DNA of 64,000 bases, taken from a bacterium (GTDB taxonomy: Bacteria > Gemmatimonadota > Gemmatimonadetes > Gemmatimonadales > Gemmatimonadaceae). The stretch is from assembly GCA_027484025.1 (NCBI GenBank), contig JAIXTI010000081.1:62001-126000 (forward strand). The letters are read 5' to 3'. The position numbers and the translations under genes were made by a program. Shown here piece after piece: positions 2,191-21,852 of this stretch. The stretch's first letter is position 1, and each line of letters begins with the position of its first letter. A model generated the notes under the pieces. The model worked only from the letters and a program-made list of their open reading frames with translations. It was not told the DNA's origin and searched no databases.

Positions 2191-3540
2191 TCACCGCGTC
2201 GCACGCCCGATCAGTCGGTACAGGTCCGCGTAAATCGAATTCCAGCCACCGGCATCCTCCTCCGACCGTCGACCGGGATGTGTCCAGCTGGCGTAGCGCA
2301 CCACCACCGTGCGTGTCTCAGGGTACACGAGCAACCACTGGCCCCAGCTGCCCGAATGGTACACCACCTGCGCCGGCCCCCGCGTGCGCGGCGGATCCAC
2401 GCGGCCGCCGGTCTCGGCGTACCAGCGCGGCATCCCCGACGCGAAGCTGCCGCTCCCGATGGCCGTATCCAGCACCATTTTGAATTGCGACGTGGTGAGG
2501 GTGCGCGCGCCGGAGTCGGGCACCAGGCGGCGCAGCGCGGCGCGCAGCGGCGCCGAAGCCGCGGTGGCCTCTACACGTGCGAGCCAGGCGGCGTCGAGAG
2601 TCACGTGGTCGTCTCCCGCCCAGCCCCAGCTGGCCGCGAAGCCGTGCGGGGCGAGCGGCAGCCCGCTGGCACCGTTGATGTGGGTGAGCGTGTCGATCAC
2701 CGCGCGTGACAGGAGGCGCTGCCCGTGCCACTCGCCGCCGTCCAACACCAGTTGTCCGAGCGCGGCGAGGTCGCGCGCCCGCAGGCGCACGCGCGAGTAC
2801 GCGTAGTTGCTGCCGCGCGCGTCCACATCCCACGACCACTGGCCGATGCACAGCGGCCGGAACAGCCGCGCTTCCAGCAGTCGCGCCAACGGCTGCCCCG
2901 CGCGTGCCTCAGTCACCAGCCCCATCAATTGCGCGCCCACATTGTTGTAGCGAAACACCGTGCCCGCCGGCTCGGCCATCGGTTGCGTCGTGACGAAGGC
3001 ACGCACATCGGGCTGCCCGACGAACTGCGCCTCACCTCGCGCGGCGGCAATACCGCTGGTGTGCGACATGAGCATGCGTAGCGTCACCGGCGCCTTGTCC
3101 TCGGCGGTGAACTCGGGGAACAGTGTGCGCAGCGGCAGGTCGAGCGACGGCAGACGCCCGTCGTCGAGCATCAGGCCCACGCCCAGCGATGCCACCGCCT
3201 TGGTGACCGACTGGGGATTCCACACCGTGTCACGGAACGATGGATGCCGCCAGTGATGCACCACGCGCCCGTCGCGCACGATGACCAGTTCATCCGTCAG
3301 CGACGCCTCGGCCACGCGCTGAATGGAATCGATCGTGGCGCGCGGGATGCCAGTGGATTCGGGCGTCGCGTTCGGTAATCCGGAACAGCTGGCGGGCGCC
3401 CCCGCGATCGTCTCCGGCCCGATACGGCCGTAGTCGTAGCCTCGTTTGCCGCAGGCGCCGAGTAACGCCGAGGCCGCGATCAGCAGCAGGGCGGCGTGGC
3501 GTGGAGCGCCGGCTCGGCGGGATGAGATGGAGAGCGTCAT
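2191..3540 (-). CDS. Serine hydrolase, class C beta-lactamase/esterase family lipoprotein
   Basis: A 449-residue member of the beta-lactamase-related serine hydrolase family (class C/DD-peptidase/esterase fold). The SxxK nucleophile motif SVTK lies at residues 111-114, the YxN motif as YNN in VFRYNNVG about residue 200, and the third motif as HSG in VYHSGSWGQW near residue 400. The N-terminus has a signal peptide with lipobox ALLGAC (Cys30), so it is likely membrane-anchored on the periplasmic side. Such enzymes cleave amide or ester bonds and activity on beta-lactams cannot be assumed. The ATG at 3540 opens the signal peptide. A decayed attC lies about 100 bp upstream. Confidence 0.85.
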   Translation of the reverse strand: MTLSISSRRAGAPRHAALLLIAASALLGACGKRGYDYGRIGPETIAGAPASCSGLPNATPESTGIPRATIDSIQRVAEASLTDELVIVRDGRVVHHWRHPSFRDTVWNPQSVTKAVASLGVGLMLDDGRLPSLDLPLRTLFPEFTAEDKAPVTLRMLMSHTSGIAAARGEAQFVGQPDVRAFVTTQPMAEPAGTVFRYNNVGAQLMGLVTEARAGQPLARLLEARLFRPLCIGQWSWDVDARGSNYAYSRVRLRARDLAALGQLVLDGGEWHGQRLLSRAVIDTLTHINGASGLPLAPHGFAASWGWAGDDHVTLDAAWLARVEATAASAPLRAALRRLVPDSGARTLTTSQFKMVLDTAIGSGSFASGMPRWYAETGGRVDPPRTRGPAQVVYHSGSWGQWLLVYPETRTVVVRYASWTHPGRRSEEDAGGWNSIYADLYRLIGRATR

Positions 3541-3636
3541 TGGCCGTCCAACGTGAGAGTCGTGCTGGAAGCGCTGCGGCAGCGCTGGCTGACGAAGGTC
3601 CGTGACGAGCGAACGTCGAAATTGGTTGAGCACCTG

Positions 3637-3790
3637 ACGATTGAGTTCGCTGCAAGGCCCTTCGATAAGTTGTGGTCAGTGAGGGCCCGCGAAAAGGCCA
3701 CAATGGTTGAAGGCACTGTCAAGCGCAACGCCTCGTTGCGCGTGCGGCGCGCCATCCGAAATGCGCCGTCAGCAGCAGTCCGTCGTTATG
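3637..3790 (-). repeat. Decayed integron attC site(s)
   Basis: Bases 3637-3743 line up with the intact sites at 21853 and 28647: a left arm gttcgctgcaaggcccttcg, a central gtcagtgagggc...aaaaggcc stem and a right arm ttgaaggcactgtcaagcgc. The terminal cores are mutated (CCTGACG and GTTGCGC). Directly to the right, 3762-3790 carries a second right-half arm (gccgtcagcagcagtccgtc) ending in GTTATG, without a matching left half. The stop codon of the neighbouring gene lies in this second core. I read this as two fused, inactivated attC remnants. Confidence 0.6.
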
Positions 3791-4157
3791 TCGCGGCGTC
3801 ACGATTGACGAAGGTGCCATCGTCATAGGCCACGAGGAACTGCTGTAGATGAAGAAGGGCCCGCCCCTGTGGACGGCTGATCGGCACCTCGATATCCCGA
3901 ACCGATCCTACGGCGATCAGCGCGTCCAACACCGCAAAATCCTGCCCGCCGATCAAGGTCACAAACCCCTGCTCCCAGTCACTAGGATCGTAGCTCGCCA
4001 AGCGTCCTGCCAGCCCGTCGACATCGCGCATGGCGAGCCACAGGGTGGGCATCGCCGGTGTCCGCTCCGCGACCTCTCGCAGGTGGGTGGCAATCTCCTG
4101 AAGCGCGGCAACTCCAGTCGCGACGACCGCGGCGAATCCGACGGGTAAATGCATCAT
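3786..4157 (-). CDS. Hypothetical cassette protein, 123 residues
   Basis: Not recognised. The product begins MMHLPVGFAAVVATG and has helical segments, an acidic middle part and the conserved-looking phrase DWEQGFVTLIGGQDFAVLD. There is no signal peptide or catalytic motif. Its stop codon TAA is formed by bases inside a GTTATG attC-type core at its 3' end, a geometry also seen in the genes ending at 31031 and 27991, and a half attC lies just upstream. Small size, unknown function and these borders point to a relic integron cassette gene. The double ATG at 4157 is preferred; the frame continues upstream into the attC remnant. Confidence 0.6.
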   Translation of the reverse strand: MMHLPVGFAAVVATGVAALQEIATHLREVAERTPAMPTLWLAMRDVDGLAGRLASYDPSDWEQGFVTLIGGQDFAVLDALIAVGSVRDIEVPISRPQGRALLHLQQFLVAYDDGTFVNRDAAT

Positions 4158-4167
4158 CTCAGTTTGG

Positions 4168-4210
4168 CGATACACCGTCTTGCGTTCTGCTGCAGCGCTC
4201 AAAACAAGAT
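4168..4210 (-). repeat. Half attC remnant
   Basis: The phrase gtcttgcgttctgctgcag with following gcgctcaaaacaagatgcg matches the left arm of the intact sites at 26122 and 28647. The matching right arm and the terminal AAC core are absent: the expected ataacg reads acaccg. It separates two small genes and is best read as a truncated site. Confidence 0.55.
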
Positions 4211-4411
4211 GCGCCGCATCACCGCATCGTCATCCCACTCCGTCGGGCGTTCGACTTCCAGCTCGATCTGTGTTGGCGGGCTCACGTGCGTGCAGGCGGC
4301 GAAGAAGCGGTGGAGATCTTCCCATGCCCGTTGCACGCCGCGCCGACGAAACGCATGCCCGAAGCCAGTGGATTTACTTGGGTGATAGGAGACGAATTCT
4401 GCGGTACGCAT
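4199..4411 (-). CDS. Small hypothetical cassette protein, 70 residues
   Basis: Not recognised. The 70-residue product is basic in its first half (HAFRRRGVQRAWEDLHRFF) and acidic in its second (EVERPTEWDDDAV). The reading frame ends inside the half attC at 4168-4210 and starts about 70 bp left of another half attC (4478-4510), so it sits exactly where a cassette gene would. Codon use is unremarkable and no ribosome site is clear. It may be a real cassette gene or a chance frame. Confidence 0.4.
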   Translation of the reverse strand: MRTAEFVSYHPSKSTGFGHAFRRRGVQRAWEDLHRFFAACTHVSPPTQIELEVERPTEWDDDAVMRRILF

Positions 4412-4477
4412 TGTCAGTGGGTCAGTCGGTCCGATCGATCGTGTTCACTGGTGACGATGTTAGCGACAGCGTCGCGA

Positions 4478-4510
4478 CGCCGGACTGCAGCAAGCAGCGT
4501 TAGGCAGGGT
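4478..4510 (-). repeat. Half attC remnant with GTTAGGC core
   Basis: The sequence ctgcagcaagcagcgttaggc matches the right arm and GTTAGGC core of intact attC sites such as the one ending at 21965. No left arm is found at the usual distance. Confidence 0.5.
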
Positions 4511-4529
4511 TTCCGTCCTACTCTGCGTG

Positions 4530-4943
4530 CTATCTGCCGGAGCGTTCGGCGCTCAAGGTCCCGACGAGCCGCAGCCGCACGCTTCGTTGCCCATCTGCTC
4601 TCGTCGGATCACTCGGGGATTGCGTCGTCTCGGTGGCCAGGACTTTTACCGTCACCAACACCGTCGAGTCGTCACGGCCTGCGACGCTCCGGGGCTGGAC
4701 GCGGCACCCCGACGAGGTGGCGCCAGGACTTGGTGTCTCCATCGTCCGACACGTGCCGATGAAGCGCTCAAGACGTCCGTTGGGGCTAATCTCGAATGAC
4801 CCAGTCACATCGGCCAATCCGGGGAGTGCCCCCGAGAATCGGTAGGATCCCGATGGCGCTGGTGACCGCGACGGTCCAGCGTGTGCGCACGCCGCCGTCG
4901 CGACCACGAACGCCAGAGCCAATCTTTGCGCTATCGATGCCAC
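4530..4943 (-). CDS. Small lipoprotein of unknown function
   Basis: A 137-residue protein with a signal sequence ending AFVVATAACAHAG (lipobox-like, Cys about residue 19). The mature part is beta-rich, with the phrases GSYRFSGALPGLADVTGSFEI and SVRLRLVGTLSAERSGR at the end; no family is recognised. The GTG start at 4943 is chosen because a GGGGGA ribosome site stands 5-8 bases upstream and because it opens the signal peptide. The gene stops about 20 bp right of a half attC, consistent with a cassette relic. Confidence 0.6.
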   Translation of the reverse strand: MASIAQRLALAFVVATAACAHAGPSRSPAPSGSYRFSGALPGLADVTGSFEISPNGRLERFIGTCRTMETPSPGATSSGCRVQPRSVAGRDDSTVLVTVKVLATETTQSPSDPTRADGQRSVRLRLVGTLSAERSGR

Positions 4944-5030
4944 GTGTCCCCCTTTCTCGATTGTCGAATGTATACGGACCGTATTCACATCACACAGATC
5001 CGCTTGACTGACTGCCATCTAGATGCCGCA

Positions 5031-6524
5031 CTACCAGCGCGACCAGAGCAGGAGTGTGCCGCACGGCGAACCCCCAAAAGCGAACTGAAACGGTAGAGTG
5101 GCGGGCGTATAGAACTCGGCGGCGCCGATCGTGGCGGGCTCGATGGAGTCCAGATTCAGTGGTGCCGCGTCGAGGCTCCCGTCGAAGATCACGCGTATCG
5201 GGCACTGCGGCTGCGAAAAGCTGATGCTCCCACGACTCGAGACCAGCGTCCGACGGCCGGTGTCGGCGATGCGCATCCCGGGGATTCGGCTGGTGAGGAA
5301 ATTCAGGATGTTTACGCCTTCGGCCTTTGCAAAGTCATCCTGCGTCAGGAACCTGCCGAATCCCATCTTCCGCCTTTCTTCGAAGGCCGCGAGGTTGGGC
5401 CCGAGCCGCGTGCGCGCCATCGCGTTCGCGCGCACCTGCACGGTATCCAGCACCAGCGCGCGCACCAGCGCCACCACCTGCGCCACGGTGTCGCCGGGCA
5501 CGAGGTCGACCGGCTGCTGTCGCGGCGCGTACCCGAGCGCCTGCACGGCGAGCGTCCACGTGCCGGTGGGTGTGGCCGCGAGCAGGAAGCGCCCCGCACT
5601 GTCGGTGCGTGTCTCGAGCCCGGTCGCACTCAACCCGACGATGGCGTTGGCGAGCGGACGTCCATCATCTGTCTGCACCGTGCCGCGCACCCCACCCGCG
5701 CCACGCAGCACGATGTCCACCAGACCACTGTCTTCCGGTGTCTGCGGGCTACTCGGCGATGTCACCACCGTGTCCGCACGCCCAAGCACCATGTCGCGCG
5801 ACACAATGCCGGTGGCCGACGACGTGAACGTGGTGACGCCGCTCGCCCCTTCGGCGCCCACCGCGCGCAGCCGTACGGTGGTCTCGGTGGGCACGCCGCA
5901 CAGCACGTAACGGCCGTTGTCGTCCACCGGCACGTCGGTGGTCACGATCGTGCGTTCGACACGCCCCGTCTCGACCCGCAGGTCCGGCCACTGCGCCGTC
6001 ACCTGTCCGGCGCTGAGCGGCAGCTCGCTGCCCGTCGCTGCTGCGCGCGACGACGCGCTGGTCCGCACGGCCCGCCGCACCGTGCCGAACAGATAGCCGG
6101 TGCCCGGGGTGGCCGCGCTCCCGCACACACGCGCCACGAGTGTGTTGACCGACGGCACCGCCGCGCGCACGGTCACGCCCCTCCCGCCGCGCACCGTGAA
6201 CGGCACCGCGACGCTGCCCACACCGAGCGTATCGAGGCGTGCGTGGCGCGCCGTGAGCACCCACGGCCCGGCCGGCAGGCTGTCCACCCGCGCGCGTCCG
6301 CGCGCATCGAGGGTGGCGTCGTGCACGCGCGTCGTATTGATCACCGACACGAGTCGCACGCTCGCCCCCGCGAGCGGCAAGCGTGTGCTGCCATCCACAC
6401 CCGTGATGTCCACGCGCCCGGGACGCCCCGGCAACGCGGACGCTTGCGCGTGCACACGCGCAGCGCCGAGCATGCTCACGCACGCGACCATGGCGGCGAC
6501 GAGGAACTGCTTCCGATGCGTCAT
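5031..6524 (-). CDS. Carboxypeptidase regulatory-like domain protein with plug-like C-terminus
   Basis: A 497-residue exported protein: signal peptide (FLVAAMVACVSMLGAARVHA), several Ig-like carboxypeptidase-regulatory repeats (phrases DSAGRFLLAATPTGTWTLAVQALGYAPR and DDNGRYVLCGVPTETTVRL), then a segment VNILNFLTSRIPGMRI...QCPIRVIFDG that resembles the TonB-receptor plug without a following beta-barrel. Proteins of this layout are common in Gemmatimonadota and Bacteroidota; they sit in the periplasm or outer membrane and their roles are mostly unknown. The ATG at 6524 follows an in-frame GTG. A relative with the same design is at 17897-20338. Confidence 0.75.
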   Translation of the reverse strand: MTHRKQFLVAAMVACVSMLGAARVHAQASALPGRPGRVDITGVDGSTRLPLAGASVRLVSVINTTRVHDATLDARGRARVDSLPAGPWVLTARHARLDTLGVGSVAVPFTVRGGRGVTVRAAVPSVNTLVARVCGSAATPGTGYLFGTVRRAVRTSASSRAAATGSELPLSAGQVTAQWPDLRVETGRVERTIVTTDVPVDDNGRYVLCGVPTETTVRLRAVGAEGASGVTTFTSSATGIVSRDMVLGRADTVVTSPSSPQTPEDSGLVDIVLRGAGGVRGTVQTDDGRPLANAIVGLSATGLETRTDSAGRFLLAATPTGTWTLAVQALGYAPRQQPVDLVPGDTVAQVVALVRALVLDTVQVRANAMARTRLGPNLAAFEERRKMGFGRFLTQDDFAKAEGVNILNFLTSRIPGMRIADTGRRTLVSSRGSISFSQPQCPIRVIFDGSLDAAPLNLDSIEPATIGAAEFYTPATLPFQFAFGGSPCGTLLLWSRW

Positions 6525-7007
6525 CACTGGCGATTCTCCATTTATACCGATGCGTTCGAGCTACTTGCGAGCTGTCCAGCACACGAGTGCCCCGCAGTCC
6601 ATGGTGAAGCGCTGGAACCGCGGCGGCGCCAAGGTCTTGCATTGTCGTTCTCCCCGCCGAGCACGTCGTCGAGATCGCTCTCGGGAGAGGCATTGCCATC
6701 GGGCTGGGCCGATTGCCTATGGAGCATACGGCTGGATCACCGGCCTCGCCAGCGCCTCGGGCCGGACGGCGGCCTGCCGTCGATTATGCGCTGGCAACCG
6801 CCGCGAGCCCGAGCAGGTCACCAAGCACCCAAGACGGCGCACTCGCGGGCCATCGCACTGGAACAACGCCGCCCCCAACCGGTGAACGAGCTTGCCAGTT
6901 GGCGGAAATCCGCGTAACACGCCGACGTGCCGCCCCGTGGAGCGCATTTAGGCGAACGCTCGATCGCCTTCGGCCACGCACTCGAGAACTTCGCCGCGGT
7001 AGTCGGC
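6525..7007. other. Intergenic stretch, no gene supported
   Basis: About 480 bp upstream of the minus-strand gene at 5031-6524 and downstream of the cupin gene. Frames present in both strands show no recognisable domain and conflict with one another. I see no attC arms. It may hold a degraded gene, and the promoter of the left-hand gene must lie at its left end. Confidence 0.45.
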
Positions 7008-7325
7008 CTATCGTAAGTCCTCACGCACCGGCGTGAACATGTCGATCACGTCCGTCGACTCGATCGCGAGTGCATGGTGCGGCGTTCCCCCCGGAATGAA
7101 CACGGTCGAACCAGGACCCATCTCGCACACGGTCTCTCCAACGACGAGCTGCAAGTGCCCGCGCACCACCGTCGTGACCTGTTCATGCGGGTGCTCGTGG
7201 CGGGGCAACATCGCGCCGGGCTCGAGGCGTACGCGCATCATCGTGATCCCGGTGCCGTGCATCAAGCGGGCGAAGATCCCGGGCGCGAGTTCGCGCTCCG
7301 GCAACGTGGTGTGGTCGATCAACAT
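7008..7325 (-). CDS. Single-domain cupin protein
   Basis: A 105-residue cupin. Motif 1 appears as PRHEHPHEQVTTVVRG and motif 2 as GSTVFIPGGTPHHALA, giving the expected His/Glu metal ligands. There is no signal peptide, so it is probably cytoplasmic. Such small cupins bind a metal and act as isomerases, dioxygenases or ligand sensors, and the substrate cannot be read. The start at 7325 gives the full first strand. It lies downstream of the large propeller gene with a hairpin between them. Confidence 0.8.
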   Translation of the reverse strand: MLIDHTTLPERELAPGIFARLMHGTGITMMRVRLEPGAMLPRHEHPHEQVTTVVRGHLQLVVGETVCEMGPGSTVFIPGGTPHHALAIESTDVIDMFTPVREDLR

Positions 7326-7420
7326 GGGGAGAGTCTACTGAAGGAGGGACCGGAGGCCGAAAGTGTCCCATTCATGATCCGGTGGCGGATCGCCATCGGA
7401 CCGAAACCATGAGACACCTT

Positions 7421-7447
7421 GGGGAGCCGGCTTATCGTCGGCTCCCC
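7421..7447. terminator. Hairpin, candidate terminator
   Basis: A perfect 9-bp inverted repeat (ggggagccg / cggctcccc, arms 7421-7429 and 7439-7447) lies about 50 bp beyond the stop of the 3.3-kb minus-strand gene. No clear T-run follows in that direction, so it may work only as a pause or RNA-end stabiliser. Confidence 0.5.
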
Positions 7448-7493
7448 GCATCGTCGTACGTCGATGATCGACCGACGAGTGATTACCGATGGC

Positions 7494-10400
7494 TCACGGA
7501 ATGATCCGACCCGGCGTCCACGGCGCACCCTCCGCTTCCGCCCTGCGCTCGAGCGCCGCGAGGTCGTTCGCCACGAATGTCGTGAGCGCCGCATGGATGG
7601 CCGGGTAGCGCTGCATGACGATCGCCAACTGCTGTTGCTGCGTTCCCGTAGGCCCGTGCAGCCCGCCTCCGGCCAACGCCGTGTTCAGGCGCCCGAGCAG
7701 TGAGGTCTCCGTGGGCTCGGAGTAGCGTCCAGGCGTGTTGTCGCCGTTGAGCTGCTCCCGGATGGCACGTAGCTTCGCGGTGGCCGTGCGAACCTCGGCG
7801 TCGAGCGTTGTCGGCTTCGTGACTTGCTGGACGGCGCGCTGGAGCGCATCGAGGCGCGTGCTGATCTCGGCCATCAGCGCGTTGTCGCCGAGCACCTGCC
7901 GCTGCAGCGGCTGGGCGTCACGATAATACGCCACCGCACGCGCGCGCTCGGCCGGTGTGATGGTCGCGTTCGGAAGGAGCTGCACGTCGAACGGTGCAGG
8001 TTGCGTGAGCGCGGTGCGGACGCCCTGCACACGCTTGAACAATTGCACACGATACGTGCCCGGTGCGACGAGCGGTCCGTTGCCGCCAAGCGTGCCGGCA
8101 CCCGCACCACCACCACCACCGCCGAATCCTCCACCGGCACCGCCGCCAGCGCCTTGCATTGGCGTCACGCTCGGCCAGCGCAAGTTCCACGTCACACGAT
8201 TGCTGCCGCCGGTGTTGGTGCCATCGAAACGCGAGACGATCGCGCCACTCGCGTCGCTGATCTCGACCTCGATCGCTGGGGCCTCCTCGTCCTGCTCGGC
8301 CTTGAGCACGGCCCAGCCGGGGAACGGAACATCAGCGCCGCTGCGATTCAGTGCGGTCTCCCGCTGCTGCCGCACCTGGCGCGCGCTGCGCAACGCGGCA
8401 CGCAGGTGATACGTGATGGTTGCACCTACCGGCGGGTTCGGCGCGACGTACAGCGACGCGCCCTGGAACGACACACCGTTGCCGCCGAGCGGTGACGCCT
8501 GCTGGAACTGGTACGTTGGTGACACACCGAGCAATGCTGCCTCGGCGCGGAGCTTCTCCGGCGCAAGGTCGCGAAGTGGCGCGTAGTCGTCGAGGACATA
8601 GATGCCGCGCCCCATCGTGGCAACGACCAGGTCGTTCATCTGCGGCTGAATCGCGATGTCGTATACGGCGATGGTAGGGAGCCCGCCGCGCATCTGCTGC
8701 CAGCGCGCGCCGTCGTCGAACGAGACGAAGAGCCCGAATTCGGTGCCGGCGAAGAGCAGGCCCGGCTTCACAGGATCCTCGCGCACCACATGCGTGGGGC
8801 CACGCGCGGGGAGATCCGCAGAGACGAGCGTCCACGTGCGCCCGCGATCACCGGTGCGTACGAGGTAGGGCTTGAAGTCGCCGCGCTTGAAGTTGTTGAT
8901 CGCGGCATACGCCACGTTGGCATCGTGCGGCGAGGCGGTGACGTACGCGACGAACGACGTATCCGGCACGCCCGGAATGCTCGCAATCTTGCGCCACGTC
9001 TTGCCGCCATCTTCGGTGACCTGCAGCAGTCCGTCGTCGGTGCCGGCGTAGATGAGCCCTTCCATCTTTGGCGACTCCGCGACGGTGGCGATGCTGCCGG
9101 CAAACGAGGTGGAGGTATTGCGCGCCACGGCATCCACGCTCCACAGCCGGCCAAGCATCTTCATCGATGTGCGCGGAATGTTGCGCGAGAGGTCGGGAGA
9201 GATCGGCTTCCAGCTGTCACCCCGATCATCCGAGCGGTACAGCCGCTGCGAGCCGAAGTAGAGCCGCGTGTTGCTGTGCGGGCTGATGATGACCGGCGCG
9301 TCCCAGTACCAGCGCGCGGGATCCTCGCCGATCTCCTCCTCGGGAACGATGCGCACGCTGGTGCCGGTGCGGCGGTCGAAGCGCACAAGGCCACCGTTCT
9401 GCGATTCGGCGTAGACGGTATTGTGGTCTTTCGGGTCGATACGGCTCTGAAAGCCGTCGCCACCGTTGGTCACGAACCAGTCGGAGTTGCGGATGCCGTT
9501 GTTGTTGTTCGTGCGTGTGGGGCCGCAGAACGAATAGTTGTCCTGCGTGCCGCCGCACACGTTGTAGAACGGCGCGTTCATGTCGACGTCAATTTTGTAG
9601 AACTGCGTCACGGGCAGGTTGCCGACGAACTTCCAGGTGCGCGCGCCGTCGAAGCTCTCGTAAATGCCGCCGTCGTTGCCGTTGATGATGTGGTCGGTGT
9701 CTGCCGGATCGACCCAGATGACGTGGTTGTCGACATGCTTGCCCGCTTCACCCAGGCCGGTGAACGTGCGGCCGCCGTCGTTGGACACCTGGTTCTGCAC
9801 GTCCACGGCGTACACGCGGTCGGTGTTGATGGGATCGACCCACAGCTCCGAGTAGTAGAGAGAGCCCGACGAGTATCCACTCTGCCGAGTCCAACTCACG
9901 CCGTTGTCCGAGGAGCGGTACACACCTCCGCGTTGGTTGGCCGCCTCGACGATCGCGTACATGACGTTCGCGTCGGACGGTGCGCGCGCGAGGCCGATGC
10001 GGCCTTCTCCTTCCGGCACGCCGCTCAGCTTCTTCCACGTCTTGCCGCCATCGGTGGAGCGATGGAGTGCCGACTCGGGACCGCCGGCGAGGTAGCCCCA
10101 GACCTGCCGGTGACGTTGCCACGTGCTGGCCACCAGGATGTCGGGATTGCGAGGATCGAGCGAGACGTCGTTCACGCCCGCCCACTTTTCACCGGAGAGG
10201 AGCTTCGTCCACGTTTCGCCACCGTCGGTCGACTTGTAGAGGCCGCGGTCACCGCCCTCGGCCCACAGCGGCCCCTGCGCCGCGACATAGATCACCCGCG
10301 AGTCGCGCGGATCGATCACGATCCGTCCGATGTGCTCCGACTGCCGAAGACCCATGTTGCGCCACGTGCGCCCCCCGTCTTCCGACTTGTAGACACCATC

Positions 10401-10805
10401 GCCGAACGCCACCGCGCGCTGCGCGTTGTTCTCGCCAGTGCCGACCCAGACCACATTCGGATCGCGTGGATCGAGCACCACGGTCCCGGTGGAAAACGTG
10501 CTTTGCGTATCGAAGATCGGCGCCCAGGTCGTGCCGGCGTTTTCGGTCTTCCAGACCCCTCCGGCAGCGACCGCCGCGTACCAGATCTTCTTGTTCGGAT
10601 GGATGGCGAGATCCGCGATGCGCCCCGAGGTGAAGGCGGGGCCGATAAGACGAAAGCGGAAGGCTGCAAGCGCGCTGGCGGGCACTCCACCGGCACGGGC
10701 AGAGTCACCTGCCGGCGCCGAGTCGTTGGCGGCGCGCGCCGGCGGGCGGGTCTGCGCCTGCGTGAGGGTCGCCACGGTGGCGAGGAGGAAGAGCGAGGAT
10801 CTCAT
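7494..10805 (-). CDS. Exported VPS10/sortilin-type beta-propeller protein
   Basis: A 1103-residue protein with a signal peptide (LFLLATVATLTQAQ) and at least ten Asp-box/BNR-like repeats of the type S-x-D-x-G-x-T-W (KSEDGGRTW, KSTDGGETW, RSTDGGKTW, QVTEDGGKTW, RTGDRGRTW). These build the large sortilin-like propeller found in many secreted bacterial proteins. The C-terminal third has a FlgD-like/Ig strand region (NRVTWNLRWPSV), a Gly-rich linker and a helical tail. No glycosidase active site is evident; the role is probably binding or degradation outside the cell. It diverges from the serine hydrolase gene at 11007. Confidence 0.85.
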   Translation of the reverse strand: MRSSLFLLATVATLTQAQTRPPARAANDSAPAGDSARAGGVPASALAAFRFRLIGPAFTSGRIADLAIHPNKKIWYAAVAAGGVWKTENAGTTWAPIFDTQSTFSTGTVVLDPRDPNVVWVGTGENNAQRAVAFGDGVYKSEDGGRTWRNMGLRQSEHIGRIVIDPRDSRVIYVAAQGPLWAEGGDRGLYKSTDGGETWTKLLSGEKWAGVNDVSLDPRNPDILVASTWQRHRQVWGYLAGGPESALHRSTDGGKTWKKLSGVPEGEGRIGLARAPSDANVMYAIVEAANQRGGVYRSSDNGVSWTRQSGYSSGSLYYSELWVDPINTDRVYAVDVQNQVSNDGGRTFTGLGEAGKHVDNHVIWVDPADTDHIINGNDGGIYESFDGARTWKFVGNLPVTQFYKIDVDMNAPFYNVCGGTQDNYSFCGPTRTNNNNGIRNSDWFVTNGGDGFQSRIDPKDHNTVYAESQNGGLVRFDRRTGTSVRIVPEEEIGEDPARWYWDAPVIISPHSNTRLYFGSQRLYRSDDRGDSWKPISPDLSRNIPRTSMKMLGRLWSVDAVARNTSTSFAGSIATVAESPKMEGLIYAGTDDGLLQVTEDGGKTWRKIASIPGVPDTSFVAYVTASPHDANVAYAAINNFKRGDFKPYLVRTGDRGRTWTLVSADLPARGPTHVVREDPVKPGLLFAGTEFGLFVSFDDGARWQQMRGGLPTIAVYDIAIQPQMNDLVVATMGRGIYVLDDYAPLRDLAPEKLRAEAALLGVSPTYQFQQASPLGGNGVSFQGASLYVAPNPPVGATITYHLRAALRSARQVRQQRETALNRSGADVPFPGWAVLKAEQDEEAPAIEVEISDASGAIVSRFDGTNTGGSNRVTWNLRWPSVTPMQGAGGGAGGGFGGGGGGAGAGTLGGNGPLVAPGTYRVQLFKRVQGVRTALTQPAPFDVQLLPNATITPAERARAVAYYRDAQPLQRQVLGDNALMAEISTRLDALQRAVQQVTKPTTLDAEVRTATAKLRAIREQLNGDNTPGRYSEPTETSLLGRLNTALAGGGLHGPTGTQQQQLAIVMQRYPAIHAALTTFVANDLAALERRAEAEGAPWTPGRIIP

Positions 10806-11006
10806 CACGTGAGGAGTGCGGGAAAGGGGGATCATCCAACCGAAAACCAGTGAGCCGAGCGCGTGATCCGGGAGGCAGGATCGCCGGACCATCTCGCCGA
10901 GACCGAGAAGATGGCACATCGCACCCTGCGCGTCACGCAATGTGTCGGCGTGTCAGACCGTTCGGGGCGCGGCGGCGGCAACCTCCAAAACCGGTATCTT
11001 TCCTCC

Positions 11007-11939
11007 ATGACCCGACTCCTCCTCGCTCTCGCGCTGGCAGCCACCCCAACACTCGTCGCCGCGCAAACGACGTCACCGCGTGCGGCCACCACGGGCAGCA
11101 TTCCGCCGAACGCTCTGCAGCAAGAGTTGCTTGGTCGACTTCGTACGCGTCTCGACTCCATTGTTGCGCACGCCGACGGCGTGGTCGGTTACGCCGTGTA
11201 CGACCCAACGAGCGGCGGCGTACCGCTTGCACGGCTGGAACGCGGCATCTTCCCGACAGCGTCCACGATCAAGCTCGCGGTGCTCGATGAGATGTTCCGG
11301 CAATACGACGCGGGCGTCCTTGATATCGATGCCGTACGAACCGTGCCGAAAGAAGCGATCGTGGCGGGCTCCGGCGTGCTGCAACATCTGACCGCCCCTC
11401 AGATGCCCCTGAGGGATATCGCCACCCTGATGATGATCGTCAGCGATAACACAGCAACGAACATCATCATCGACGCGCTCGGCATGGACAAGATCAATGC
11501 GCGCATTGCCGCGCTTGAGATGCCGGACACACGGTTGCGCAGAAAGATGAACGACATGGTGTCTGCGCGACGCGGGGTGGAGAACGTGGCGTCGCCTCGG
11601 GATCTGGCAACGCTGGTGTACAAACTCTGGAACGGAGAGGGACTCACTGGGGCGAGCCGTGATGCCGCGCGGCGCATGTTGTATGCAGTGCCCGGGCGCA
11701 TGCGAAACGCCGTACCGGCGGATGTACGCGTGGCGCTCAAGACCGGAGAGAATCAGGGCGTGCGGGCGGAGGCGGCGGTGGTGGAAGTGCCCGGGCGCTC
11801 CTATGCGATTGCCGTGATGACCACCTATCTCGCCAGTGACCAACGCGGCTCCGACGTGATTGAGGCGATTGCCGGCGAGGTGTACCGCACGATGGCGCGA
11901 CTCGGGAGCGGGGGCGAGTACGGTCGAAAGCTGCCGTGA
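11007..11939 (+). CDS. Class A beta-lactamase-like serine hydrolase, exported
   Basis: A 310-residue exported enzyme with signal peptide (LLLALALAATPTLVAAQ) and class A beta-lactamase motifs: S86-T-I-K89, S146-D-N148 and K245-T-G247. The region that should carry the deacylating Glu (ExxLN) reads TRLRRKMNDM and lacks it, as in a group of class A-related hydrolases annotated simply as serine hydrolases. Hydrolysis of beta-lactams is therefore uncertain. The ATG at 11007 opens the signal peptide. It is convergent with the VOC gene, only 15 bp away. A second, distinct member of the family is at 24648-25634. Confidence 0.8.
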   Translation: MTRLLLALALAATPTLVAAQTTSPRAATTGSIPPNALQQELLGRLRTRLDSIVAHADGVVGYAVYDPTSGGVPLARLERGIFPTASTIKLAVLDEMFRQYDAGVLDIDAVRTVPKEAIVAGSGVLQHLTAPQMPLRDIATLMMIVSDNTATNIIIDALGMDKINARIAALEMPDTRLRRKMNDMVSARRGVENVASPRDLATLVYKLWNGEGLTGASRDAARRMLYAVPGRMRNAVPADVRVALKTGENQGVRAEAAVVEVPGRSYAIAVMTTYLASDQRGSDVIEAIAGEVYRTMARLGSGGEYGRKLP

Positions 11940-11954
11940 TCGGGAAGCCACGCG

Positions 11955-12377
11955 CTACTGGTCCCAGTACTCGCCGGCGCGATAGTTCCCGAAGTACCAC
12001 ACGTGATTCTCAATATCGAGGACTTCGTATCCCCTCGCGCCGTAGTCTTCTGTTCGAAGCTCGCGAATGACTTTGGCGCCCGCAGCGACGGCGACTTTGT
12101 AGTGCGCATCCGGATCTTCGACATAGACGTTCAGTGCCTGAGACACGCCGGGCATTCCGACTGGGCTCAGGCGGCCAAGCTCCGGCTTAGTCGAACCGAC
12201 CATTACGACGCCTGTACCTAAGCTCAGTTCCGAGTGCTCGATCCTGCCGCCCGCTCCCGGAAGGACAAATCTCTTCACGAAGCCAAAGGCTTGGCAAAGC
12301 CACTCGATTGCGGCCGGCGCATCGTTGTACGTAATGCTCGGGTAGATGTCTGAGGGACTGCGGTACACGCTTGGCAC
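11955..12377 (-). CDS. VOC (glyoxalase/PhnB-like) family protein
   Basis: A 140-residue vicinal-oxygen-chelate protein. The phrase SITYNDAPAAIEWLCQAFGF is the typical opening of PhnB-like members, followed by GRIEHSELSLGTGVVMV and the C-terminal LDIENHVWYFGNY. These proteins act as lyases, dioxygenases or antibiotic-binding proteins, and the metal ligands cannot be assigned safely. The GTG at 12377 is chosen because it opens the first strand; the frame also runs upstream without sense. A decayed attC lies 40 bp upstream, so it is probably a cassette gene whose own 3' attC is lost. Confidence 0.75.
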   Translation of the reverse strand: MPSVYRSPSDIYPSITYNDAPAAIEWLCQAFGFVKRFVLPGAGGRIEHSELSLGTGVVMVGSTKPELGRLSPVGMPGVSQALNVYVEDPDAHYKVAVAAGAKVIRELRTEDYGARGYEVLDIENHVWYFGNYRAGEYWDQ

Positions 12378-12415
12378 GATGCGATTCCTGTTCGGTGAGA
12401 GGCGGCGTTGCCATT

Positions 12416-12553
12416 GTGGCCTAACGGGTTTTCGCGTGTTCAGAAACATTGCCAACGCTGGCAACGAGTGGGTGCTCACGCCGAGGCTTTTTCTGTGAGG
12501 CCAAAGCGAGCGCAGCGAGCGTCCGAAGATGCCCGTCTGCAGCAAGTGCCGCC
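12416..12553 (-). repeat. Decayed attC site
   Basis: The left end reads GGCCTAACGGG, a good core. The centre contains aaagcgagcgcagcgagcg, shared with the sites at 21853 and 28647, and the right arm gcccgtctgcagcaagtgcc corresponds to gccctgccagcagcaacg of the intact site. The right core GTTRRRY is mutated beyond use (gccaga). Confidence 0.55.
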
Positions 12554-12651
12554 AGACCGCGCCCCGCGGCTCAAGCGTCCGGGCGTGGCCCCGATCGTTA
12601 CGCAACACGCCCCTTCCCTGCCGGCCCCACATCGCGGCTACATATTGCAGC

Positions 12652-13959
12652 ATGGCCCAGCCACGTGATGTTGCCGCCCGTGTATTGTTGCCTCGCCAAC
12701 GGGTACGTACCCTGTCTGCCGTCCTGGCGCGCGCGTCTGCGATCGTGTGCTTCGCCGCGATCAGTGTCGGCTGCGCGCGTGACGCGTCCCCCGCACTCGG
12801 TCCGGATCTTACCGATCCGCGTCGTGACACCACGGCGCAGACACCACCCACCGGCGCGCCTTTGCGGCCCGCGTCGTGGTCGTTTACCGGCCCTACGCCG
12901 TCACCGGTGCCATTCAATGAACCGGGATGGGACGTGCAGATTCATTCGCGCGATCGCGACACGTGGCTCACGCCGCAACCGGTCGACGCCCATCACGCCG
13001 CCGATTGTGGCCCGCATCCCGGCACGCACGCCGTTACACGCTACGAGCAGATGGTGTTTCGCTGCCGCGACCATCTGATGACGTCGATCCGGGCGGACGG
13101 CTATGGCGTCGTGGTGCTCTCCCCCGATCGCATGCTCGATTGGACGGCGGGCGAGGCCGTGCTGCGTTTTGATGTGTCCACCTTTCGCAGCTCATCGCGC
13201 GATTGGATCAAAGTGTGGCTCAGCCCGTTCAACGCGCAGCTTCCCGTACCAGCTGGCGCGTTTGTCCCCGACCTCAATGGTCCGCCCGAAGACGCCGTCT
13301 TTGTCGAGATGACGGCCAACGGCAATCTCTGCGCGCGTGTCGTGCGCGACTTCGTGATCAGCGAGCTCCCGTGCGACGCCTGGCGGGATCTGGCCGAACG
13401 CGTACCGCCCAGTGCCACGGCGCGCACCACCGTGGAGATCCGGCTCTCGCGCACTCATGTGCGCGTGGCGCTCCCACAACACAACATTGTGCTGGCGGAC
13501 GCCGCCTTCCCCGCCCCGCTCCGCTTTGCGCAGGGCGTGATACAGTTCGCGCACTACTCGTACACGCCTGGGAAATGCGACGGGTGCACCGGCGCCAACA
13601 CGTGGCACTGGGATGAGGTACACGCCGCGCCGAGCGTGCCGTTCACCATCATCCGCGCGGATCGTCGGCACGTGGACGGCGCCGGCGGCGAGGTGCGATT
13701 CGCGAGCCCGGCTCCGCGCAACGCATCGCTCCGTTTCGTCGCCGCCGGCGTGGCGCCGGAAGTGAGCTTCGACGGAGGCACTCGATGGATGCCGGCTCAG
13801 CCGCAACGCGTGTCCAAGGAGGCCGACCCCGTGCGGCAGTACTGGATGCCGGTTCCCCAAGGCACCGACCGCGTGGCGATTCGTCCCGGTGCGCCTATCA
13901 CATGGTGGCCACACCGCGACGTGTGGATCGCCCGAGACTTCGCGCTGTGGGCACGCTGA
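12652..13959 (+). CDS. Lipoprotein of unknown function, 435 residues
   Basis: Not recognised. A basic N-terminal region of about 30 residues is followed by a hydrophobic stretch and a lipobox ISVGCARD, so it is likely a lipoprotein with a rather long signal. The mature part is beta-rich with many Trp and Asp residues and two CxxC-like pairs (GKCDGC), resembling secreted carbohydrate-binding or lectin-like proteins; this is inference. ATG at 12652 is the first start after the attC remnant. It is antiparallel to the array direction. Confidence 0.6.
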   Translation: MAQPRDVAARVLLPRQRVRTLSAVLARASAIVCFAAISVGCARDASPALGPDLTDPRRDTTAQTPPTGAPLRPASWSFTGPTPSPVPFNEPGWDVQIHSRDRDTWLTPQPVDAHHAADCGPHPGTHAVTRYEQMVFRCRDHLMTSIRADGYGVVVLSPDRMLDWTAGEAVLRFDVSTFRSSSRDWIKVWLSPFNAQLPVPAGAFVPDLNGPPEDAVFVEMTANGNLCARVVRDFVISELPCDAWRDLAERVPPSATARTTVEIRLSRTHVRVALPQHNIVLADAAFPAPLRFAQGVIQFAHYSYTPGKCDGCTGANTWHWDEVHAAPSVPFTIIRADRRHVDGAGGEVRFASPAPRNASLRFVAAGVAPEVSFDGGTRWMPAQPQRVSKEADPVRQYWMPVPQGTDRVAIRPGAPITWWPHRDVWIARDFALWAR

Positions 13960-13966
13960 GCGGTGA

Positions 13967-14251
13967 ACGGCCCGCGCTCGCCACACCCCGCTCGCCATCG
14001 GCTCCTGGCTCTACCGACTCCTGTACGGTTTCTGGTTCACGCTCACGGGTGGTCTCGGACCCAGGGAGCACTTCGACGGTCCGTTCGACGCGGTGATGGC
14101 GTTCTTCTATCTGCCCGACCTCGTCGTCGTGGACGCACTCGTGCGCGCAACGGGCCGGACGCGTCATCCGGCATTCGTGTGGGTCAGCGCAAGGATTCTC
14201 GCTGCCGGTAGCGCTGTGCTCTGCGTTGGCACCTACTACTTCGGGCGCTAG
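13967..14251 (+). pseudogene. Small membrane protein fragment without a proper start
   Basis: This frame encodes SWLYRLLYGFWFTLTGG...MAFFYLPDLVVVDALVRATG...ARILAAGSAVLCVGTYYFGR, with two or three convincing membrane segments and a clean stop. No ATG, GTG or TTG precedes the first membrane segment in frame; the nearest start is the GTG-ATG pair at 14093-14098. A GTG coupled to the preceding stop (13963) is in another frame, so a single frameshift would restore a full gene. I infer a frameshifted or truncated gene. Confidence 0.4.
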
Positions 14252-14394
14252 TACTGGGGACCCGCGATTGAAGAACGCTTCGCCCGGCGGGAACAGCACC
14301 ACGAACTCCGGGGCGTCGGCACACTGCGTCCAATACCTCTTGGCGGACCAACGTTGCACATGACCGCGCAACGCGGCGGCGAGGTGCGACGCCC

Positions 14395-15057
14395 TCAATA
14401 CAGCCGCGACGGCACCACGTGGAGCATGACAAAGAACGTGCTATTGCGCGAAGTGCCGGCTTGGCGCTCGCTGTCGAGGAGACCGAGTTCATACCGCCCC
14501 TCCACGCCGAAAATGCTGCCATCCCTTGCTCGCCTCTCCAGCCCGAGGCCAAGCATCACGCCAGCATCGACGCGTCGCATGCGATAGTCCCGCGCAAAGG
14601 GCGCGGTGAGCACCTGGTCGCACCGTTCACTCGCCGAGATGGCTTGCAGTCCTTGCAAGCGACAGGTCGCGAGCACCGCCACGGTCGGCCCCAGCGAGAG
14701 TACGGGACTCAGCGCCGCGCCGGTCGGCGCCAGTGCCCCGAGACGCAAGAGCACCGGAACCTCCACATAGCCGAGCGTACGCGTCGGCTTGCTCGCTGGG
14801 CCGTACCCTTTGGGCACCCAGAGCAATTCCGTCTGCAGCACCGTCCGACGCCGAAGGGAGTGACGATAGGTGAGACCCGCCGCCACGGCGTTCCGGTTTT
14901 GGTAGGAGCCGGCGGTACCATTGCCATACGTCGTGATGATGTCGGACGTCGTCCGCGCGACCGTCAGACCCACGTGCTGGGCGCGGAGGCCGGCGAGTGG
15001 CACGAAGACCCCCACGAGCGCCATGAGCGGAATCAAGAGACGTCTGCGGTTGTGCAT
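14395..15057 (-). CDS. Outer-membrane beta-barrel protein (PorT-like)
   Basis: A 220-residue exported protein: signal peptide LLIPLMALVGVFVPLAGLRAQ, then amphipathic strands alternating with short turns (VAAGLTYRHSLRRRTVLQTELLWVPKGYG, GYVEVPVLLRLGAL) and an aromatic-rich end (FFVMLHVVPSRLY). This is the pattern of the outer-membrane beta-barrel domain family (OMP_b-brl_2/PorT). The gene ends in Tyr, typical of BAM substrates. The start lies next to a decayed attC, as in a cassette with its gene close behind the site. Confidence 0.7.
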   Translation of the reverse strand: MHNRRRLLIPLMALVGVFVPLAGLRAQHVGLTVARTTSDIITTYGNGTAGSYQNRNAVAAGLTYRHSLRRRTVLQTELLWVPKGYGPASKPTRTLGYVEVPVLLRLGALAPTGAALSPVLSLGPTVAVLATCRLQGLQAISASERCDQVLTAPFARDYRMRRVDAGVMLGLGLERRARDGSIFGVEGRYELGLLDSERQAGTSRNSTFFVMLHVVPSRLY

Positions 15058-15140
15058 TTGCAGTGAAAAGAAGGGGGAGGGAACGCGCGTAGCGCGTTTG
15101 CTCGATAGCCGCCTTGTCAGCAGTCGCTGCTCGTACGGCG
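15058..15140 (-). repeat. Decayed attC site, relative of the 27899 site
   Basis: The segment cgcgtagcgcgtttgctcgatagccgcctt...cagcag matches the centre and right arm of the intact site at 27899-27996 (cgcgaagcgcgtttgctcaatggccgcctt...cagcag). The right core is reduced to CGTACGG; it still nearly pairs with the CCATAAC core of the next site at 15873. The left arm has diverged. Confidence 0.6.
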
Positions 15141-15375
15141 GCTGGCTTTGAGGAGTGCCGGAACGCGCAGTTCCAACTGCCGAAGGCGAGTTCACGCGAG
15201 TCCAAGTTGTGCGATGTGCTGGTCACACTCGTGAACACCCGGAAGGAGGCCGACTGCCAGGTACAACGCTCTGGCCTCGCGCACTCGCCCCTCCATCCGA
15301 TCCTGCCTGGCCTGCTCGACGATCGACGCAGCGACCCGTTATGGCGATTCAGTCGCCGTTGCTTACCCTCCAAAG

Positions 15376-15846
15376 TCACTGGACGGGACACGCGACGCGC
15401 CGTCCGGCGAGGCGTGCTCGGTTCGGTGGTGCAAGTTCATCCGTTGAGAATCTTACAGTACCACGAACGGAGTCTGTCGAGAGCTCACGGAGCATCATCT
15501 CATATCCCCAGTCGACATCGTAGTACTCGATCTCAATTTCACCCGAGGGCCGAGCCGACCAACGTCGCGCTTGCCCGAGGGTGGGCGCGCGATCTCTGTA
15601 CATCTTTACCCATCCCGTCGGTTCCGCAGTCGGCCCGTCCGCATCGGTCGCGAGCCAGAAATTTGCGTGAGAGCCTTTGGCTGGCTCCTCCAGCAGCCAA
15701 GAAGGTCGCCAGCGAGACGCGTCGCCGGTAGAAAGCTGATAGCATCTCGCATTGGCCTCCGTGTCCGACGGCGCAGGTCGTGGGCGTTCGCACCCGGCGA
15801 TGGCGGTGACCAACAGCAGTGCCGCTCCTCTCGTACGTCGATTCAT
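15376..15846 (-). CDS. Small lipoprotein of unknown function
   Basis: A 156-residue lipoprotein: signal GAALLLVTAIAGCERP with lipobox (Cys about residue 18). The mature domain has the phrases RWSARPSGEIEIEYYDVDWGYEMML and VRGTVRFSTDE; no family is recognised. The gene reads in cassette direction between the decayed site at 15058-15140 and the intact attC at 15873. The ATG at 15846 is chosen because upstream in-frame Met codons fall inside the attC sequence. About 235 bp downstream of the stop hold no gene. Confidence 0.65.
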   Translation of the reverse strand: MNRRTRGAALLLVTAIAGCERPRPAPSDTEANARCYQLSTGDASRWRPSWLLEEPAKGSHANFWLATDADGPTAEPTGWVKMYRDRAPTLGQARRWSARPSGEIEIEYYDVDWGYEMMLRELSTDSVRGTVRFSTDELAPPNRARLAGRRVACPVQ

Positions 15847-15872: not shown

Positions 15873-15983
15873 CCATAACGCTGGCGTTGTACTGCAGGGC
15901 CCTGTAACAGGATGCGCCCAGTGAGCGCGGCGAACAAGGGCGCAATCCGTGAAGGCCCTGCCAGTACCAACGCGAGGTTAGAC
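15873..15983 (-). repeat. attC site (cassette 12/13 boundary)
   Basis: Cores CCATAAC and GTTAGAC bound complementary arms (ctgcagggccctgtaacagg / ccgtgaaggccctgccagta). The central stem is gcgcccagtgagcgcggcgaacaagggcgc. It belongs to the main attC subfamily of this array. Confidence 0.85.
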
Positions 15984-15994
15984 ACCCATGCCAC

Positions 15995-17425
15995 CTACTG
16001 GCGGCGGCGCGGTGCGCGAACGGCGCGGCCTGGCGTCACCCCGTCTACCGCGCGCCCGTTCGTGACGACGGAAACGCCGCCGACGAGCACATGGGCAATC
16101 CCCACGGGCGGGAGCGTCGGCTCACGATACGTCGACTGATCCAGTACCGTCGCGGGGTCAAAGATCGTGAGGTCGGCGTCGGCGCCAAGCGCGATGCGCC
16201 CCTTGCGGCGCATGGCTGGGACGCGCGCCTCCAGTCGTTGCGCCGGCATGAGCGTCATCTTTCGCAGCGCGTCCATCAGCGAGACCGCGTGCTGCTCGCG
16301 CACGAAGCGCCCGAGCACGCGCGAGAAGGTGCCCGTCGTACGCGGATGGCCCGTGCCGTCCTGCCAGTACGCGTCGCTCCCGATCATCACCAGCGGGCTC
16401 GCGATCGCGGCGGTCACCATGGGCTCGGTGTTCCTGAAGATCACCACGGGGCCGCCGATCGCCGTGTACTTCGCGAACCGCTCGCGGTTCATGCGTTCGC
16501 CCGTGCGCGGCCACTCGATCTCGGCCAGCACGGAGTCCGGCGCGTTGCGATACGCATCCTGGACGGTGGCCGACTGGATTTCTGTCATCCCCGCGGTGTA
16601 CGGATACGCTTCCGTCGTGACGTCGCTGCCCGCGCGCCGCGCCTCGGCAATCAGGTCAAGCATCGCCGGCGTCTCGGCGTAGCCCGCGCTGTTGATGTGG
16701 ACCACGTGAAGTGCCGCCCCAGACACGCGCGCGAGGTCGAGCGCTTCCGTCAGTCCCTTCACGCCGCCTCGGATATGTACGTGCACCGGCGTCTTCGCAC
16801 GTGCCGCGACACGGAAGACGTCGAGCAGCTCCGCATGAGACGCCGACGGCGTGTACGTGAAGCCGGCACCGACGCTCACGGCCCCCGCATCGAGTCCGGC
16901 TTGGATCCGTCGCGCGATCTCCTGCGTCTCCGCCGCCGTGGCGACGCGATACGCGCCTGGCCCGACGGGCATCACGGTGCCCGAGTCGCCGAGTACCGCC
17001 ATGCGCACCTTGATGTGGCCGATGCTCACGCCGTAGTTGATCCGCTGGCCGGGCGCACGGGCCGCGTACCACGCCGCGATATCGGCCGTGCCGAGTTCGA
17101 GCTCGAAGGACGACGTCACGCCATCGAGCGCCTGAAAGCGATACGTCTCCGCCGTCTGCCCATGCGCGTGCACATCGATGAAGCCGGGGGCCACCACGAG
17201 CCCCCTCGCCGCAATCGTGTCCCGTCCACGGATGGTACCGGTCGTGACGGCCGCGATGCGGCCCGCCCTTAGGCCGAGATTGCGGACGGCGTGCAATCCG
17301 GTGGCGGGATCCATCACCGTCCCCCCGAGGATGACGCGGTCGTAGGTGGTCGTTGATTGGGCCTGCAGTCCCATCGCCGAAAGAGCCAACGTTGCAATGG
17401 CGAACCGAATCGAGGGTGCGGACAC
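15995..17425 (-). CDS. D-aminoacylase-like amidohydrolase, exported (cassette 12)
   Basis: A 476-residue amidohydrolase with a signal peptide (FAIATLALSAMGLQAQ). Metal-ligand motifs are visible: GFIDVHAHGQ (HxH, about residues 80-90), HVHIRGG, HVVHINSAG and a late IGSDAYW. The family (N-acyl-D-amino-acid deacylase/dihydroorotase-like) hydrolyses amide bonds with one or two metal ions; the exact substrate is unknown. The GTG start at 17425 opens the signal peptide. The gene reads in cassette direction, starts 66 bp from the attC at 17491 and stops 12 bp from the next attC, so it fills a 1.6-kb cassette. Confidence 0.85.
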   Translation of the reverse strand: MSAPSIRFAIATLALSAMGLQAQSTTTYDRVILGGTVMDPATGLHAVRNLGLRAGRIAAVTTGTIRGRDTIAARGLVVAPGFIDVHAHGQTAETYRFQALDGVTSSFELELGTADIAAWYAARAPGQRINYGVSIGHIKVRMAVLGDSGTVMPVGPGAYRVATAAETQEIARRIQAGLDAGAVSVGAGFTYTPSASHAELLDVFRVAARAKTPVHVHIRGGVKGLTEALDLARVSGAALHVVHINSAGYAETPAMLDLIAEARRAGSDVTTEAYPYTAGMTEIQSATVQDAYRNAPDSVLAEIEWPRTGERMNRERFAKYTAIGGPVVIFRNTEPMVTAAIASPLVMIGSDAYWQDGTGHPRTTGTFSRVLGRFVREQHAVSLMDALRKMTLMPAQRLEARVPAMRRKGRIALGADADLTIFDPATVLDQSTYREPTLPPVGIAHVLVGGVSVVTNGRAVDGVTPGRAVRAPRRRQ

Positions 17426-17490
17426 GTTTTCTGGCTCGTCTTTCTAAAGGGGTCAAACGCACTCGCGCACGCGCGCGAGTCAGTCGGGGT

Positions 17491-17582
17491 GCCTAACGCT
17501 CGGTTTTGTTGCAGCACTCTCATGAAACTGCGCGCATGGCGCGCATACCGCAAAGCGCTGTCAACAGCTACGATCGTTATGC
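17491..17582 (-). repeat. attC site (cassette 11/12 boundary)
   Basis: Cores GCCTAAC and GTTATGC enclose arms ttttgttgcagcactctcat and gcgctgtcaacagctacgat with a cgcgcatggcgcg centre. Its right core pairs with the left core GCATAAC of the next site at 20428, as expected for the two ends of one cassette. Confidence 0.8.
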
Positions 17583-20338: not shown

Positions 20339-20427
20339 AACGCCGTGATTACTTGGGCGCGCGCGTGAAGATGAGATAATCGGCGCGATCAGCGTCTTCC
20401 TCCGGTAACGGCGCCTGCCAGAATTCT

Positions 20428-21789: not shown

Positions 21790-21852
21790 CGCGTTCGGCG
21801 CTCGCGTGGGGTTGTCAATCGTGCCCGTTCATGTGAGATGACTGCTGTTGCT

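Follow-up and report, generated by a model that had tools for sequence, protein, structure and literature searches.

Damaged attC sites beside a chromosomal integron of the Gemmatimonadaceae very probably mark immobilised cassettes

The window analysed here, a stretch of 64,000 nucleotides (nt) from a bacterium of the Gemmatimonadaceae (positions 62001-126000 of contig C101 in a 4.74-Mb draft genome), carries an integron: an integrase gene (intI), a probable attI site and an array of 12 intact attC sites that extends leftwards from intI (Table 1). Left of this array we found seven attC fragments, every one in the orientation of the array. We consider it very probable that this zone is the intI-distal remains of a sedentary chromosomal integron in a Gemmatimonas-like species, its cassettes having been immobilised by truncation and mutation of their attC sites. 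Positions are counted from the first nucleotide of the window, and negative ones lie to its left.

Damaged attC sites left of the array

A panel of 93 attC sites, 81 from sister genomes and 12 from the genome itself, was aligned locally to 400-nt tiles over 126 kb. Seven fragments were found between -5 kb and 15.87 kb, with scores of 48 to 107 and all on the minus strand. Within this zone (tile starts from -5 kb to 15.7 kb), eight of 69 minus-strand tiles scored at least 36 and none of the 69 plus-strand tiles did. None of 288 control tiles, taken from both strands, reached that score, either farther left (0/190, maximum 34) or from 34.1 kb rightwards (0/98, maximum 33). An earlier note on this DNA had reported mutated attC sites at four places; relics are indeed present at all four, the one near 12.4 kb being centred on 12473-12557. 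The probable fragment at 13963-14000 comes in addition to those named in the note. The note had also proposed a comparison with shuffled sequence. Using 200 dinucleotide shuffles per segment, all six relic segments examined exceeded every shuffle with at least one panel (own or sister sites), while the scores of four control segments were reached by 86-200 of the 200 shuffles; 3736-3788 and 13963-14000 were not treated as separate segments. Segment 15050-15150 passed with the own panel only, through array site 27899 (its sister-panel score was reached by 15/200 shuffles), and 4440-4520 with the sister panel only (own-panel score reached by 9/200).

Two covariance models, R1 and R2 (the latter built from sister sites only), do not include the outer R''/R' stem and give low scores to half-sites, which were therefore judged by local alignment. 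By covariance model the sole relic to stand out was 3632-3741 (38.2 bits, E = 1.7e-6 over the whole genome, with 150 of 6119 candidates scored). It obtained 27.1 bits with R2, which gave 10.6 bits to 4170-4235 and 3.7 bits to the 3736-3791 relic; the 15059-15139 relic obtained 11.4 bits with R1. No Rfam family matched in the window at gathering thresholds.

Chance likeness to GC-rich hairpins or terminators would be the simplest alternative. The relics at 12473 and 13963 are weak, and 13963-14000 lies directly past the stop of the open reading frame (ORF) 12529-13959, where it could be a terminator-like repeat; it is partly common to G009, the nearest relative (locus L072, 1892-1916, score 40). 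Against this explanation stand the control tiles, the shuffles, the location of all seven fragments on one strand and the spacing between genes and relics described below, and we regard it as extremely improbable.

The two boxes of an attC site are known as RYYYAAC and GTTRRRY. In the array, all 12 sites show R'' and R' boxes with an imperfect hairpin and keep the GTT triplet of R', and all fold better than shuffles (z -1.98 to -9.87). In the structure of lowest energy the two boxes pair with each other in ten sites and not in the other two; covariation was seen in 20 of 27 predicted pairs, and R2 scored all 12 at 42.3-84.2 bits. As aligned, none of the relics has this triplet: they carry GTC, GTG or GGT, or the R' half is absent. 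Nor do they hold a complete hairpin, since they are half-sites or, for the two full-length ones, fold otherwise: 3632-3741 reaches z -2.13 but forms other hairpins, and 12473-12557 folds no better than shuffles (z +1.58). For the latter relic an alternative R' at 12420-12427 would keep GTT, and the assignment is ambiguous; as a site of its own this short motif, GTTAGGC, was rejected (4.3 and 2.0 bits alone). The stretch 4168-4510 may be one interrupted site, a reading that we favour less because its halves best match different attC sites and the 70-residue ORF ends within the R' half.

Table 1. Features of the integron and of the zone to its left; all are on the minus strand. Local alignment scores are given with the aligned segment.
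Feature	Positions	Aligned segment (score)	Details
Serine hydrolase gene (beta-lactamase fold family)	2191-3540		PF00144; leftmost possible cassette gene
Relic attC, full length, point-mutated	3632-3741	3634-3737 (107)	R' GTCAGGT, R'' GCGCAAC; 104 nt matched to a G006 attC
Relic attC, R'' half of a different attC type	3736-3791	3736-3788 (56)	Fused to the 3632-3741 relic
Small orphan gene	3786-4157		TAA stop within R'' of the next relic
Relic attC, R' half only	4176-4216	4176-4213 (61)	Homology ends at the crossover triplet
70-residue ORF	4199-4411		Stop codon within the R' half relic
Relic attC, R'' half only	4477-4505	4477-4505 (48)	R'' box GCCTAAC intact; 27/29 nt identical to a G029 attC
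Small secreted orphan gene	4530-4943		Ends 25 nt before the R'' relic at 4505
Block B	5026-7370		CarboxypepD_reg gene 5031-6527, cupin gene 7008-7325
VOC/glyoxalase-like gene	11955-12379		PF00903 on ORF 11955-12917; adjoins the relic at 12473
Relic attC, near full length	12473-12557	12502-12546 (56)	R'' GTCTGGC, R' GTGAGCA
Probable attC arm fragment	13963-14000	13963-14000 (51)	33/38 nt identical to a G006 attC
Outer-membrane beta-barrel gene	14395-15057		PF13568 on ORF 14395-15195; starts at the relic at 15059
Relic attC, R'' half and hairpin	15059-15139	15081-15123 (66)	R' half unrecognisable; 39/43 nt match array site 27899
Small lipoprotein-like orphan gene	15376-15846		Between intact attC 15873 and the relic at 15059
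Intact array, 12 attC sites	15873-32059		Supported by repeats, covariation and sister-built model; low coordinates 15873, 17491, 20428, 21853, 24414, 25699, 26122, 27899, 28647, 30238, 30903, 31935
Probable attI	33905-33990		Left edge about 33905; right limit a guess
Integron integrase gene intI	34116-35084		TIGR02249, 394.3 bits (cut-off 265)

A former cassette and its neighbours

Block B is found as a cassette in other genomes. Its segment 5026-6805 recurs at 91-95% identity in G006, G028, G005 and G016, at different places, and is bracketed by attC sites (41-56 bits) in three of these sisters: G028 (L017, 11821 and 14154), G006 (L019, 2316 and 4757) and G016 (L077, 7517 and 10172). In G006 and G028 the bracketed block lies upstream of intI on the intI contig. 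G005 has a single attC near block B, on one side only, and in G009 the right end of the block abuts an attC at R'. In our genome, local alignment of the 93-site panel gave no attC signal scoring at least 32 from 4506 to 10.7 kb. Because it is attC-bracketed in three sisters and has no such signal here, block B is best read as a former cassette that would have lost both neighbouring attC sites. Its synonymous divergence (dS) is near-constant, 0.135-0.138 to G028, G009, G005 and G016, whereas that of the core helicase gene varies (0.42, 0.22, 0.98 and 0.87, respectively); block B thus spread independently of the core genome. It differs from the bracketed G006 copy by a dS of 0.086 (core helicase 0.226); against G009, its ratio of nonsynonymous to synonymous divergence (dN/dS) is 0.46.

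Five consecutive genes at 2.2-6.5 kb lie on the array strand, and three of them end at a damaged attC. The spacing between genes and relics fits cassettes for the genes at 3786-4157 and 4530-4943 and for the beta-barrel gene (Table 1). Structurally, the genes at 4530, 4199 and 3786 fit cassettes, as does the cupin and CarboxypepD_reg pair of block B, for which a separate cupin cassette and co-mobilisation of the pair are candidate readings. That the small orphan genes are cassette genes, as the earlier note proposed, is borne out by relatives: a 34% homologue of 3786-4157 lies in G007 (L085, 1501-1842) between attC sites at 1385-1478 (53.3 bits) and 1900-1993 (32.7 bits), and a 33% homologue of 15376-15846 in G029 (L100, 1492-1941) between attC sites at 1370-1477 (66.6 bits) and 2010-2149 (44.4 bits).

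We then compared the distribution of the genes among 60 relatives at a match threshold of E 0.001. Gene 3786-4151 was matched in one relative, 4530-4943 in two (E 3e-4 and 9e-4) and 15376-15846 in two (one at 2e-4); 4199-4411 had no match. The beta-barrel gene was matched in 16 of the 60, at 26-38% identity, and the VOC gene in 30, the best match by E-value being 47% identical. Since four of the six small genes between the relics are found in at most two of 60 relatives, these genes are not fixed across the genus. Further left, the serine hydrolase family was matched in 59 of the 60, mostly by distant paralogues; 29% homologues of the hydrolase adjoin block B homologues in G001 and G004, with one in-frame TAG per match. 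In G005 (contig C10, L075, 532-999), hydrolase fragments (90-94% identity, an internal stretch missing) are joined to a piece resembling our 6682-6772 (76%), which appears to be a decayed cassette junction in another species.

Comparison with G009 divided the zone into shared blocks, namely A (pieces between -4486 and 1829), B (4980-7358), C (7384-11981) and D (12563-13987), and islands between them that have no match in G009. Six of the seven relic fragments fall wholly within islands (7.2 of 22.0 kb lack a G009 match), and 13963-14000 straddles an island edge. The accessory character, for which the note had proposed a comparison with sister genomes, is present in the islands as in the rare small orphans. 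The genes of A, C and D show dS values of 0.11-0.26 to G009, around that of the core helicase (0.218), and dN/dS of 0.05-0.17, with some codons entering the count twice at overlaps between G009 contigs (genes 247-786, 902-1828 and 7494-10805); by these values they look inherited and are constrained by purifying selection. ORF 37589-38524 was dropped from the dS comparison, as its dN/dS of 2.15 in G009 and the lack of a match in six of seven genomes mark it as a probable false reading frame. The note's picture of fixed cassettes turned into ordinary genes thus holds in part: A, C and D behave as constrained genes, for which a cassette past is a candidate only, and the small genes between the relics are not fixed.

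Damaged or divergent sites were also detected in sister stretches of G006, G020, G004, G028 and G009, scanned at a threshold of 38 with intact sites masked; the same scan gave only weak matches (38-42) in G005 and G016. We do not claim a general trail of attC sites in sisters, since in G028 the long flank to the left of 4.309 Mb, which is poor in attC, yielded one weak match (41).

How the zone may have formed

New cassettes would enter at attI, near 33.9 kb, and older ones would shift left. Left of 15.87 kb, point mutation may have removed the R' GTT triplet and the hairpin (3632, 12473), while at 3736, 4176, 4477 and 15059 an R'' half, an R' half or a chimera may be what survived truncation or fusion; on the flanks of block B these events may have left no detectable trace. 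Because R' box and hairpin are no longer usable in the relics, the cassettes should not be excised by the integrase any more, and their genes would be immobilised and then change by ordinary mutation, deletion and insertion. We infer that IntI can no longer use the relic sites, and that these were damaged where they now lie and not before they arrived. The former array would very probably have reached at least to 3.63 kb, where the full-length relic 3632-3741 lies, in line with the earlier note, which had let it extend past 3.6 kb.

The note further held that decay rises with distance from attI. This we did not find: distance was uncorrelated with the local alignment score among the seven relics (Spearman rho 0.27, p = 0.56) and with R2 bits among the 12 array sites (rho -0.04, p = 0.90). 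Site quality changes as a step at 15.87 kb and shows no trend with distance. A steady clock of attC decay, running once a site has left the vicinity of attI, would account for the intact sites being all proximal and the damaged ones all distal in the window, yet it agrees with neither correlation nor with the most distal full-length relic being the best preserved, and we consider it improbable. Whole sites with point mutations are no more common than half-sites and a fusion, and block B, at a dS of only 0.086 from a bracketed copy, is without attC signal; distance is for these reasons no clock. The fossil record is real and is not dated by distance.

Several observations weigh against remains of an array as the explanation of the zone. 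A single array site underlies the relic at 15059, and the stretch 15040-15145 outdoes 199 of 200 shuffles in folding (z -3.17), though none of its local hairpins links two halves of an attC. For the relic 12473-12557, covariance models give borderline values (18.0 bits, E = 0.0096 within the window), its R2 score of 16.8 bits lying below that of a chance plus-strand match at 47587 (18.1 bits). No attC was found near any of 12 scanned loci of VOC homologues (E 0.1). Blocks C and D resemble ordinary inherited genes and have no cassette copy among the comparisons, and thus the zone is not purely old array. Twelve other attC sites on five other contigs indicate that cassettes are also located elsewhere. 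Finally, absences from G009 are soft, as this genome is fragmented and 85% complete, and the 15.9-kb DNA search scored ten candidates per genome.

Some of these points would suit another origin, in which the relic cassettes were never in the main array: the integrase would have inserted them beside it, between ordinary genes, using secondary sites other than attC, much as in clusters of attC sites without intI (CALIN), and their attC sites would have decayed there. Inherited-looking blocks between the relics are what such insertion would leave, and four of the five other contigs with attC sites hold at least two. However, every relic is in array orientation, the five consecutive genes at 2.2-6.5 kb share the array strand with damaged attC sites ending three, and in both G006 and G028 the attC-bracketed block B shares a contig with intI and lies upstream of it. 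We therefore hold secondary insertion to be rather unlikely and prefer the decayed distal array.

A wider proposal is more tentative. The distal end might act as a gene-settling zone, in which attC sites are truncated within or beside their hairpins faster than genes decay and cassettes become permanent genes under purifying selection, repeatedly across Gemmatimonas species; this is possible, and we put it forward with some doubt.

The integron platform and known systems

The intI product is an IntI-type tyrosine recombinase, and its nearest named counterpart belongs to Gemmatimonas sp. UKL202c (98%). The gene lies on the strand of most cassette genes and reads toward the array, a direction resembling that of Treponema. 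Homology to G006 begins at 33905, the GTT of a GTTAGCC core, a putative attI edge backed by G006 only, of six sisters compared. Two junctions that differ from G009 sit at R', which may indirectly reflect recombination activity of the integron. Cassette E (17491-20428) is 97% identical to its G009 copy, with a dS of 0.039 that falls far short of the core value, and at its ends the two genomes part at attC sites; it was exchanged recently by the integrase. Several intI-proximal cassettes (27991-33979) carry defence-like genes, among them a NACHT protein, a HEPN protein and a BrnT/BrnA toxin-antitoxin pair.

The integrase protein is 98% identical to that of G006 and 71% to that of G009, and the adjacent helicase is 97-99% identical to both. 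As intI is far more diverged from G009 (dS 1.22) than this helicase (dS 0.22), the comparison suggests a replacement of intI itself at this position. An integrase match in G001 (L079, 14207-15004) spans residues 53-318 with one internal stop and is possibly an inactivated intI. The 12 attC sites off the intI contig (34-78 bits) form CALIN-like clusters of the same genome, on C128 (4), C135 (3), C45 (2), C179 (2) and C138 (1). In G006 (L020, 10274-13204), six attC sites lie close together at a spacing of 509-606 bp. Three measure about 125 nt and the other three about 95 nt, their scores are nearly equal, and the cluster looks as if small cassettes had recently been amplified in tandem.

Block B, with attC on both sides in relatives and none detectable here, shows that a cassette can lose mobility and yet keep its gene. 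It also opens the old question whether integrons supply chromosomes with permanent genes to testing in a natural genus of which many species have been sequenced, and it is a warning that array finders based on attC can miss old cassettes.

A review names integrons of Gemmatimonadota (PMC8618304); inactivated integrases, CALINs and arrays that vary among closely related lineages are already known (PMC8618304, PMC12444791). The portion used of PMC1382264 held nothing on damaged attC sites, and among the titles listed from open-licence PMC papers none concerned decayed distal attC sites in Gemmatimonadota. Distal cassettes have been described as the most ancient (PMC3108266), there with regard to low expression and not to attC decay. 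The decay by attC loss reported here is of an already known kind and not a new system. In class 1 fused cassettes such as blaGES-1/aacA4, partial or total attC loss likewise locks neighbouring genes together; one truncated attC was not an integrase substrate, and in another study, cited in the same paper, a truncated site was still excised (PMC4670013). Here, in contrast, several damaged sites lie in one zone of a chromosomal integron. CALIN elements also hold cassettes away from a working platform (PMC8618304, PMC12444791) and are recognised by at least two attC sites with no integrase nearby, whereas our zone adjoins the intact array and intI on one contig and its attC sites are damaged. The closest likeness is to the sedentary chromosomal integrons of Vibrio and Xanthomonas, which similarly combine intI with many cassettes of related attC sites and a content that varies between close lineages (PMC8618304); unlike those, the integron described here has an intI that reads in the direction of the array and a distal part with damaged attC sites.

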